Assembly: GCA_013298545.1 (NCBI GenBank)
Contig: JAAFIA010000001.1
Span: 1-64,000 of the forward strand
Direction of reading: 5' to 3'
Source: Bacteroidota bacterium
Lineage (GTDB): Bacteria > Bacteroidota > Bacteroidia > Palsa-965
DNA length: 64,000 bases
Part shown: positions 51,902-60,450 of the stretch, one piece after another
Layout of the letters: each line of letters begins with the position of its first letter
Position numbering within the stretch: position 1 is the first letter of the stretch
Notes under the pieces: generated by a model
What the model saw: only the letters and a program-made list of their open reading frames with translations
What the model was told of the DNA's origin: nothing
The model's database searches: none
Made by a program: the position numbers and the translations under genes

Positions 51902-52846
51902 TTAATAAACGTCAAGCGGCTCAATGGATTTAAGCAGATAACTGTACTTTTTTTGATTCGTTGTTCTATTGCTTGTACATGTTTCCTCAATCAGGCAGTA
52001 GCAATCGTCACCAATTCGAATTTCTTTTATTTGTTCAAGAATTTTTGTTGGATAACGACCTCTATATATTTTCTTATCCTTGTCTTTAACCTCGAACGTT
52101 CCTTTTAAACTTGATGTAATTAATACGGCTTCGATTTCGTGTTCTTTGGGAGATTCTACAATGATATTACTCAACGAATTGGTCATTGTCTGAATTTTTT
52201 CCTTATCTCCTTCCCACGAAAATGTTTTGTCAGATGCCGAATCCCAAACAATATCTATTTCTAGAGCGTTTGAATCTACGGTGCTTAAAAACTTTTTTAG
52301 ATTTCTTAGACTTTGGGTTCCGCATTTCGACGCTGACTCTAAAAGTTCTTCAGAAGAGTTCGCATTAAGCAAAGAGAATGTATTCTCAAAACTTTTCTCA
52401 ATCAAGCTATCACCAAATAAATCTGGGCTTGTTTGCCCAGTAATATAAATTCGTGTTGATCCAGAAGCTGTACCCGCAAAACGTAAATCAAGCGTTCTTT
52501 TTACTTCTTGAAGAGCACTTGCACTTTGTTTTGAGCCACTGCGGATTTGCTTTGAGGAGTAAATAATTGCATCGGAAAGTTGAGTTGTTAATTTACCCAA
52601 TATATCTAATGGAAGCGTACCATATTTCGCCGCCTTACCAATAAGGCGTAATTCCAATATCTCAATGTCTCTATTGCTTTTCTCTTGAACTAGTTCTATT
52701 GTTAATTCTTCGATATGCTCGCGCGTATTTTTAACGAGTCCTTGATAAAAAAAATTATCTGGCTCATCACGCAACTTTGTTTCGTAACTGCGTAATAAAT
52801 TAGTTGCGCTCGTCAACAGACCTTCTATGCGTGCTATCTTTTGCAT
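51902..52846 (-). CDS. Unknown protein, partner of nucleotidyltransferase-like gene
   Basis: A 314-residue cytoplasmic protein with no signal or membrane segment. Residues 1-60 are helical and charged (KLRDEPDNFFYQGLVKNTRE, ELTIELVQEKSNRDIEILEL). The middle has GTLPLDILGKLTTQLSDAIIYS and RFAGTASGSTRIYITGQTSPDLFGDSL, and the C-terminus is a small beta domain (AVLITSSLKGTFEVKDKDKK, RIGDDCYCLIEETC, KKYSYLLKSIEPL). I recognise no family with confidence. Its start lies 3 bases after the stop of the nucleotidyltransferase-like gene, so the two are one unit. The pair is AT-rich compared with metG and the DUF2723 gene. Confidence 0.72.
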   Translation of the reverse strand: MQKIARIEGLLTSATNLLRSYETKLRDEPDNFFYQGLVKNTREHIEELTIELVQEKSNRDIEILELRLIGKAAKYGTLPLDILGKLTTQLSDAIIYSSKQIRSGSKQSASALQEVKRTLDLRFAGTASGSTRIYITGQTSPDLFGDSLIEKSFENTFSLLNANSSEELLESASKCGTQSLRNLKKFLSTVDSNALEIDIVWDSASDKTFSWEGDKEKIQTMTNSLSNIIVESPKEHEIEAVLITSSLKGTFEVKDKDKKIYRGRYPTKILEQIKEIRIGDDCYCLIEETCTSNRTTNQKKYSYLLKSIEPLDVY

Positions 52847-52849
52847 TTT

Positions 52850-53299
52850 TTATATAAGCAGTTTGAAAATTCCTTTTTGATTCAAATTGTCTCTTTCTAA
52901 GCCAAAAAGGTTTTGATAATATTTTCGTTGCTCTACATTTTTGTTGTCAAAGTAGTGAACATCGAGTAAATAGCGAATTTTTACTTTTTTAGTCTCTATC
53001 ATAAGCTGACGAAATAACATTTGCTTTTCCGGACTTATTGTATTTACCTCAGTCTCGTTTAATAGAAAGGCAAGGTCAATATCGTCTGGATCATCTTTCC
53101 AAGTTACAAAAGAACCGTCGATCCAAACCTCCGCCTTTATTCCTAACGACTGAAATAAGTCTAAAAACTGCTTTAATTTGGTGATTAAAAGTAGTCTCCT
53201 TTCTTTGTTTTGAAACGGGTCTAGAAAAAATTTATCCAATTGATATAAACTGATTTCTTTGAATCCATGTTCCAATAATGGCTTTTTGTCGATTTTCAC
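52850..53299 (-). CDS. Nucleotidyltransferase-like protein (DUF6932-like)
   Basis: A 149-residue protein with the nucleotidyltransferase-fold motif: Gly62-Ser63, then Asp73 and Asp75 in the segment IDGSFVTWKDDPDDIDLAF, which fits hG[GS]x9-13DhDh. Following helices and a short strand (KIRYLLDVHYFDN) complete a minimal domain; no helicase or HEPN domain is attached. Related small nucleotidyltransferases serve as antitoxins, toxins or defence proteins, but some have other roles. It is first of a two-gene operon with the 314-residue protein. DUF6932 assignment is from memory of the IDGSFVT...PxDIDL pattern. Confidence 0.72.
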   Translation of the reverse strand: MKIDKKPLLEHGFKEISLYQLDKFFLDPFQNKERRLLLITKLKQFLDLFQSLGIKAEVWIDGSFVTWKDDPDDIDLAFLLNETEVNTISPEKQMLFRQLMIETKKVKIRYLLDVHYFDNKNVEQRKYYQNLFGLERDNLNQKGIFKLLI

Positions 53300-58800: not shown

Positions 58801-58872
58801 GGTCTCGTAGTTCAATGGATAGAATAGAAGTTTCCTAAACTTTTGATACAGGTTCGATTCCTGTCGAGACTA
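58801..58872 (+). tRNA. tRNA-Arg (anticodon CCT)
   Basis: Acceptor GGTCTCG pairs with CGAGACT (one G-U), anticodon stem GAAGT/ACTTT (one G-U) with loop TTCCTAA, anticodon CCT for AGG, and T-arm ACAGG-TTCGATT-CCTGT. 72 bases with discriminator A; CCA not encoded. Confidence 0.93.
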
Positions 58873-58985
58873 CTTCAAAACGCAAAATCCCCCCACCCCG
58901 CACATTTTGCAAGGCCCATACAACAGCACTCCACCATTCCCATCACCAAGCCATGTTGAGGGTTTGCCGCTTGTCTTTACTCGAT

Positions 58986-59417
58986 TTATCCCTTATCGTT
59001 CGGGTCATGCTCTACCATCCATTCAATCCCGTATTTATCTCTAAACATGCCAAAGTAAGTGCCCCAAGGACTATTGGAAATCGGAAATTCAACTTGTCCG
59101 CCAGCAGAAAGTCCGTTGAATAATTTATCTGCCTCTTCTTTACTTTCTGCACTGATGGCTATTTTCGATCTGTTCTCATTTTCGTTTGTTAGCCCCAAAA
59201 TTTCAGGCACGTCATTCGCCAATAAAACGTTTTTCCCGATGCGTAAACCAATGTGCATGATTTTATTCGCTTCATGCTCCGCAACAGGAAATTCGGCACT
59301 TGCCATTTCTTTGAAACGCATGATTTTTGTAAACTCTCCGCCAAATACGGATTTGTAAAAATTGAATGCTTCTTCGGCATTGCCATTGAAATTGATGTGC
59401 GGATTGATACGTGCCAT
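58986..59417 (-). CDS. VOC-family (PhnB-like) protein
   Basis: A 143-residue protein of the VOC/glyoxalase fold: NPHINFNGNAEEAFNFYKSVFGGEF at the start, EANKIMHIGLRIGKNVLLAND, and SPWGTYFGMFRDKYGIEWMVEHD at the end, all typical of PhnB-like proteins. Reaction unknown; members include metal-dependent lyases, dioxygenases and antibiotic-binding proteins. It sits just after tRNA-Arg in an AT-rich stretch that may be a cassette region. The ends match the domain length, so it appears intact. Confidence 0.87.
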   Translation of the reverse strand: MARINPHINFNGNAEEAFNFYKSVFGGEFTKIMRFKEMASAEFPVAEHEANKIMHIGLRIGKNVLLANDVPEILGLTNENENRSKIAISAESKEEADKLFNGLSAGGQVEFPISNSPWGTYFGMFRDKYGIEWMVEHDPNDKG

Positions 59418-59625
59418 ACTGTTTTTGTGTTTAATTATTTTCGTTTGGGTTGTTTACTGCATTTTCAAATCGGGCCTTTTTTCAATCATCTACTCGTATT
59501 GGTTTTTTGCTATTGCCTATACCGTTTTTCGGTTTGACGATGGGAGACTTTTACCATAAAACGGTCTATGGAACACGAAACTCCGCCTTTAGGCTTGGGC
59601 TTTTGGTGCTGATGTTTCTGTTTTC

Positions 59626-60450
59626 TTAATTGTCTTTAATTCCATTATCGCTGTTTGGTTTTGAAGTTGGTTTCCTGAAAATGTCATAGTAAAAGCCTAT
59701 TACAAAAAAGTCTCGTCCTGTTTCATCATTAATTTTATAATCGAATTGATATAAATAACCTAGCTGTATAGAAGCTGTTTTTAATGGTTTGTAATTGAAT
59801 GCAAACATCAATCTGTTTCGTTCAAAATAAGGTTCGTTATCGGTGAAAAATATTTCGTCGCTTACACTAACTTGAAATGGCTTGTATTCATTTTTTTCTT
59901 TACCAAATGGAAAAGCAAGCCCAAGTCTATACCTAAACCTATTGCGATAGCCATTACTTGTAAATCTAGACTCTGCACGATAGCGTTGTTCAATCTTCAA
60001 CTTTCCTATTGCTTGAAAAAATACGAGTTGCGGCCAAAGCCTAAATTCGTCATTGTTTTTTGGCAAAACAAAATTGCCGCCCTCCTTGTAGGTTTGATAA
60101 CTACCTGCAGCTAACGTCAGCATAACGTTTTTATGGACTTTGTAGTTAATTCCTCCTTTATATTCGTAATAATGAAAGTTGTCGTAAAATTTTAGCGAAC
60201 GTAGCTGTGCTTCACCAAAAAAACTGAGTTTATCAGAATGGTTATATTTTAAATTTAAAATGTTCCAGCTACCAAAATCAGAAGATTGAGCGGTTAACGT
60301 TTTTATTGAAAGGCAAAAGAAAACGATGAAATATGCTATGAGAAAAACACTTCTTTCTAAGCACCTTAGTCTTGTTTTTTTTGAATTGCTTGTCACAATA
60401 GTTTGTTTTTTCACCAATCGCCTATTTTGCTCCTGATTGGTTATGGTCAA
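59626..60450 (-). CDS. DUF2490 family beta-barrel-like protein
   Basis: A 274-residue protein with the DUF2490 pattern: SSDFGSWNILNLKYNHSDKLS, GEAQLRSLKFYDNFHYYEYK, FRLWPQLVFFQAIGKLKIEQRYRAE (in parts), RFRYRLGLAFPFGKE and FNYKPLKTASIQLGYLYQFDY. A hydrophobic segment (VFLIAYFIVFFCLSIKTLTAQ) acts as signal peptide after a long, basic N-terminal tail, so the true start may be a later non-ATG codon. The gene is strongly AT-rich (a sampled 60-base line is 25 percent GC), suggesting transfer. Confidence 0.75.
   Translation of the reverse strand: MTITNQEQNRRLVKKQTIVTSNSKKTRLRCLERSVFLIAYFIVFFCLSIKTLTAQSSDFGSWNILNLKYNHSDKLSFFGEAQLRSLKFYDNFHYYEYKGGINYKVHKNVMLTLAAGSYQTYKEGGNFVLPKNNDEFRLWPQLVFFQAIGKLKIEQRYRAESRFTSNGYRNRFRYRLGLAFPFGKEKNEYKPFQVSVSDEIFFTDNEPYFERNRLMFAFNYKPLKTASIQLGYLYQFDYKINDETGRDFFVIGFYYDIFRKPTSKPNSDNGIKDN

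Follow-up and report, generated by a model that had tools for sequence, protein, structure and literature searches.

The locus comprises two intact open reading frames on the minus strand of the window, by which we mean the whole stretch of 64,000 nucleotides that was analysed. Gene A (53299-52850, GTG start, 149 aa) encodes a minimal nucleotidyltransferase (NTase) of the DUF6932 / PDC-M63A type and, after 3 bases, gene B (52846-51902, ATG start, 314 aa) encodes its partner, a PDC-M63B protein. Both ORFs exist exactly as reported in an earlier note made from the sequence alone, as do the flanking genes that it had named, a polysaccharide deacetylase on the plus strand and an S66 LD-carboxypeptidase on the minus strand. 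The low GC content that it had remarked on is likewise real (32.0% for gene A, 36.2% for gene B, and 34.8% for the pair versus a window mean of 44.1%), a value as low as that of the pair being found in only 0.4% of the same-length segments of the 64 kb, and GC3 is 30-34% in the pair versus 45-52% in the flanking deacetylase, S66, MetRS, and DUF2723 genes. Around the pair we found housekeeping genes rather than a defence island, no adjoining phage genes, and no flanking direct repeat of at least 9 bases; promoter and terminator scans of the locus gave nothing above chance. A second low-GC stretch (about 36-37%) lies at 58986-60450 of the window, with ORFs of 143 and 274 aa, shortly after a tRNA-Arg gene (58801-58873), and is possibly a tRNA-linked insertion.

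Gene A matches the Pfam family DUF6932 (PF22014, E 4e-25) and, as its sole PADLOC family, PDC-M63A (E 1.1e-48, profile positions 3-148 of 152). The NTase motif residues that had been picked out in the translation, the active site G62-S63 (53111..53116, minus strand) and the metal-binding D73-x-D75 (53075..53083, minus strand), were correctly placed and are invariant in 27 homologues, together with R35, D61, K68, P71, K142, and G143. A third acidic residue, D113 (52961..52963, minus strand), is Asp in 20, His in six, and Asn in one of the 27 homologues. It completes the usual triad, probably as the third acidic ligand, and the active site is thereby a full one of the polymerase-beta type. His replaces Asp at this position in a group of phage M63A proteins (the L043-L055 group), in which this ligand may be dispensable. 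The AlphaFold2 model of gene A (pLDDT 94.7) gives weak fold matches in the PDB (E 0.01-0.1), led by minimal NTases including the HEPN-MNT antitoxins 7ae9 and 6m6u; MenT is absent among the fold matches listed.

The partner, which the earlier note had called unknown, is not wholly so, since gene B matches PDC-M63B in PADLOC (E 8.3e-97, profile positions 3-308 of 309). It has no Pfam family, including neither HEPN nor DUF6575 (PF20215), and no sequence match to any solved structure. Its AlphaFold2 model (mean pLDDT 87.9, pTM 0.74) bears out the three parts that had been proposed from the translation, namely a helical region at the N-terminus, a domain in the middle, and a beta domain at the C-terminus. 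The protein begins with a two-helix hairpin (residues 2-59, helices 2-27 and 32-59; 52670..52843, minus strand), which we infer to be the part contacting the NTase. There follows an alpha/beta core (residues about 61-233; 52148..52666, minus strand) with no known solved fold and a strictly conserved Gly129-Ser130, and then a C-terminal, OB-fold-like beta domain (residues about 234-310, from strand 234-245 to strand 298-310; 51917..52147, minus strand). The model has no significant PDB structure match, its best partial ones including OB-folds (ExoVII, IF-1, and SSB; E 0.008-0.04); with BFVD included, the partially matched OB domains are those of SSB, IF-1, ExoVII, and eIF5A type, and the top BFVD match is a DUF6575 protein (E 7.8e-16). 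The invariants of gene B are Gly76, Gly104, Gly129, and Ser130, besides a few near-invariant and mostly structural (Gly/Pro/Trp-type) residues, and no conserved catalytic set is visible among 26 B proteins. Because gene A retains at least ten invariant residues including its active site, and gene B only structural invariants plus the Gly-Ser, A is the only evident enzyme of the pair. We rejected HEPN membership for gene B, as the RX4-6H motif is absent from it and not conserved across the 26 proteins. Neither protein of the pair is an integral membrane protein (maximum 19-residue Kyte-Doolittle values of 0.79 and 1.11). Weak matches of gene B residues 38-132 to PDC-M02B (4e-4) and of residues 62-146 of the B protein in locus L009 to PDC-M32A (3e-5) suggest that the M63B core is present in further candidate systems.

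The window pair is a divergent member of the catalogued candidate family PDC-M63, and not a new kind of system. It shares with that family both proteins, their order, and their adjacency, but its genes are 3 bases apart where those of the family usually overlap by 4, and its identity to viral relatives is 22-42% for A and 13-32% for B. PDC-M63AB has been described as never previously verified, and when a prophage-borne PDC-M63AB was deleted from Escherichia coli NILS69, none of the 10 phages tried was affected (PMC12409345). We found no mention of DUF6932 by name in the open-licence papers searched.

Vertical inheritance and ubiquity in the lineage, which would have spoken against the system proposed in the earlier note, do not describe this patchily distributed pair. 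Of 59 genomes searched for gene B, only its own was positive, the relatives that lack it including six of the same genus. Across the phylum, 5 of 396 genomes gave a match, weak and partial in three of the five. Scans of close relatives' genome contigs and of viral contigs with the gene B protein alone returned nothing. Queries made from an alignment were equally fruitless where its B proteins were too divergent, as were those made with one divergent B protein at a time. The mEpX1-type pair is present in 18 of 5426 complete E. coli genomes, adjoining phage regulators in the one example inspected. In genus relatives, the DUF2723-deacetylase and S66-MetRS blocks are each conserved on different contigs, so that the site of the pair is a break in synteny and not a simple insertion; a clean empty site was sought in these genomes and not found, the flanking blocks being on separate contigs. 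We regard the pair as horizontally acquired and mobile.

Its relatives are mostly carried by temperate phages. With tblastn, gene B was found in Escherichia phages mEpX1 and PhiR30_1, Erwinia phage vB_EhrS_59, and a Klebsiella plasmid with phage genes, and in all four a CI/S24 repressor precedes A and B, which is the position of lambda rexAB. When an alignment restricted to A was used to scan viral contigs, it yielded 56 loci, 53 of them with a B profile match directly downstream, a proportion that applies to the M63A subfamily because the query was built from paired genes. The viral loci are not independent either, since clustering by B at 90% identity reduces all pairs collected up to that scan to 24 clusters. 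Conserved adjacency, the check that the earlier note had recommended, is thus nearly invariant in viral contigs, and most, if not nearly all, of the 53 pairs have a 4-base (ATGA) overlap of A and B. In two of the three viral loci without a B profile match (L095 and L094), the NTase is followed by proteins that by eye resemble distant B homologues, in L095 also at -4, and in the third (L096) it is fused to a putative hydrolase. Among 28 genes upstream of phage pairs, 18 have an HTH_3 and 12 a Peptidase_S24 domain, and, of the 22 types of phage pair that could be checked, about 20 showed by inspection and single scans the order CI-like repressor then pair. Each of the nearest viral relatives of the window pair (L041 and L042) has an S24-type repressor upstream, and L042 also an integrase downstream. 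A single RdgC match among the upstream genes probably corresponds to the gene upstream of the L096 fusion. The two proteins appear to have diverged together, their distances being correlated over 26 pairs (Spearman 0.84, reached in 0 of 5000 permutations) and also over the 10 pairs more than 40% different in B (Spearman 0.75, 1 of 5000 permutations).

The location of most phage relatives directly downstream of a CI-type repressor, together with the OB-like domain of B, would fit a RexAB-like prophage superinfection exclusion, in which B would sense phage DNA or replication complexes through that domain and signal to A, with no antitoxin relationship between them. We consider this rather improbable, since the pair has no membrane protein, B has no sequence match to solved structures, and the window copy does not have a CI-type repressor directly upstream. 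We give the same low probability to a selfish addiction or lysogen-stability cassette with no real anti-phage activity, of which the window copy would be a stranded phage-cargo leftover. The negative deletion test in NILS69 and the lack of neighbouring phage genes here agree with such a cassette, but both window ORFs are intact and keep all strictly conserved active-site residues, and addiction in NILS69 must be weak at most since the pair could be deleted there.

The NTase also occurs with quite different partners. Our scan of 396 phylum genomes for DUF6932 gave 24 genomes over the cut-off, from which 23 loci were fetched. The M63B profile matched in 10 of these, and one more (L135) has a B-like partner recognizable by eye only; five have an Xre-HTH partner, in three cases with a match to Peptidase_M78 (IrrE-type), three have a small ORF of 74-101 aa, and the rest consist of one hydrolase fusion, one locus at a contig end, and two without a clear partner. 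A further DUF6932 scan in the class found pairs with ORFs of 68-107 aa. The earlier note had regarded an NTase occurring mostly without its partner as counting against the system, and for the M63A subfamily this is not the case, whereas about half of the sampled wider-DUF6932 loci carry other partners. Two tandem pairs of a DUF6932 NTase and an ORF of about 103 aa occur in one same-genus genome (L149 / L153), and the genome of the window itself contains another DUF6932 NTase followed after 10 bases by a helical-looking 101-aa ORF (L002 / L124, contig C144). Fusions of a DUF6932 NTase to a putative alpha/beta hydrolase are found at L096:4848-6128 and L136:1468-2655. The Xre-peptidase partner in locus L116 matches RmrA at 2.7e-14, which we take to be an antitoxin-type component of a defence toxin-antitoxin (TA) system, and PD-Lambda-2_B at 1.5e-77. 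The latter is the antitoxin-type component of the defence TA system PD-lambda-2 (PMC9519451). Comparison of the hairpins across partner types with hhalign gave probabilities of 0.5-37%, which do not establish their homology, and the pattern is one that we read from the sequences.

The core of gene B is found in another framework as well. In two phylum loci (L006 and L007), the C-terminal part of a protein matches PDC-M63B, its N-terminus matching DUF6575 in L006 and PD-T4-10_B in L007, and the gene adjoins a homologue of PD-T4-10_A. PD-T4-10 is a verified TA system acting by abortive infection in E. coli, with B toxic and A the antitoxin (PMC9519451). We considered whether the tested PD-T4-10B itself contains the M63B core and dropped the idea, as the C-terminal domain of the E. 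coli profile is apparently a different one: positions 227-344 of that profile match another ORF (L040) that is weakly Abi_alpha-like, and the toxicity of the tested protein is consequently not transferable to the M63B core. The genome of the window also has a DUF6575/PD-T4-10_B-like ORF of 192 aa after a PD-T4-10_A-like ORF and before one of 148 aa (L035, contig C46). It is conceivable, if on balance doubtful, that DUF6932 is a new toxic or defence NTase family whose antitoxins are modular, namely a helical neutraliser either alone or fused to an Xre/IrrE or an M63B alpha/beta-OB sensor, and that the M63B core, recurring in the unrelated PD-T4-10 framework, is a portable phage-sensing module.

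These observations bear on which of the two proteins is the effector. In a reversed arrangement like that of HEPN-MNT, B would be the toxin and A an antitoxin that adds a nucleotide to it, infection interrupting this modification so that B arrests the cell. The closest solved folds to A, weak as the matches are, are those of MNT antitoxins, one of them with an AMPylated HEPN toxin, and MntA is known to adenylylate HepT (PMC7641770). The order NTase then partner is also that of the MNT-HEPN-like loci L137 and L139, and the B core can sit on the DUF6575 framework of PD-T4-10B, a toxin. Both the MNT folds and this toxin count against A as effector, and we regard the reversed arrangement as the main rival, unlikely though it is: gene B has no conserved RX4-6H or any other conserved catalytic set, the C-terminal domain of the tested PD-T4-10B is apparently of another kind, and the partners of A include ORFs of 68-107 aa as well as Xre proteins that resemble antitoxins. 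We prefer a scheme in which A is the effector while B neutralises it and serves as sensor, because A is the only evident enzyme and the constant partner, its companions being either very small ORFs or proteins like antitoxins; where A and a tiny helical ORF form a minimal system, A is the only evident effector.

Our preferred reading of the window pair, to which we give a probability of roughly 0.45, is a TA-type anti-phage module of the PDC-M63 family, gained by horizontal transfer, in which the effector A is neutralised by B and B is also the sensor. The pair would be typical temperate-phage cargo, expressed together with the lysogenic repressor, and B would keep A inactive by means of its N-terminal hairpin. 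Upon infection, the core and OB-like domain of B may sense phage nucleic acid or a replication product and then free A, which would attach a nucleotide to some essential molecule of the cell, most plausibly a tRNA or a protein, and the infected cell would stop growing before phage release. The A-B complex, the toxicity of A, its enzymatic target, the trigger, and the protection are all inferred here. Against this reading count the lack of effect of the NILS69 deletion, the hairpin probabilities given above, and the replacement of D113 by His in six homologues. Regarding the TA or phage-defence module proposed in the earlier note, a conserved mobile module of that type, made up of an NTase and a partner, is well supported; the defence activity itself is putative, the single published deletion test being negative (PMC12409345). 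The phages able to trigger the system may have been outside the E. coli panel.

PDC-M63 was catalogued but mechanistically blank. It can now be linked to the immunity regions of temperate phages, and a domain anatomy is available for its partner B, along with a testable prediction as to the effector. Both the core common to PD-T4-10-like proteins and the exchange of partners among DUF6932 enzymes point to a modular TA or defence architecture. To our knowledge, and within the open-licence papers searched, the repressor-linked position, the core common to DUF6575/PD-T4-10-like proteins, and the DUF6932 partner swapping have not been described together before.

Several known systems resemble the pair in part. 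CBASS can be set aside, as no CBASS profile in PADLOC matches either protein and the sole PDB profile match to a CD-NTase has an E value of 0.034 over 59 residues. As in lambda RexAB, the phage relatives hold the place after the repressor, but no homology was detected and the membrane component (RexB) is lacking in the window pair. PD-T4-10 is approached by some phylum relatives, in which the M63B core is fused behind a DUF6575 or PD-T4-10_B-like N-terminal part and a homologue of PD-T4-10_A lies next to the gene; the window pair, by contrast, has neither DUF6575 nor PD-T4-10_A, and its gene A is an NTase. The Xre-peptidase antitoxins of RosmerTA and PD-Lambda-2 type are paired with other DUF6932 NTases, whereas gene B has neither an HTH nor an IrrE peptidase. 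HEPN-MNT (MntA-HepT) likewise consists of a small NTase followed by one partner, with the GS and DxD motifs present in gene A and a weak likeness in NTase fold, but gene B is not a HEPN protein, being larger and of mixed alpha/beta structure with an OB-like domain. For an NTase acting as the toxin there are precedents in Xress-MNTss, reported as an Xre antitoxin with a minimal-NTase toxin (PMC8406773), and in MenT (PMC11541572).
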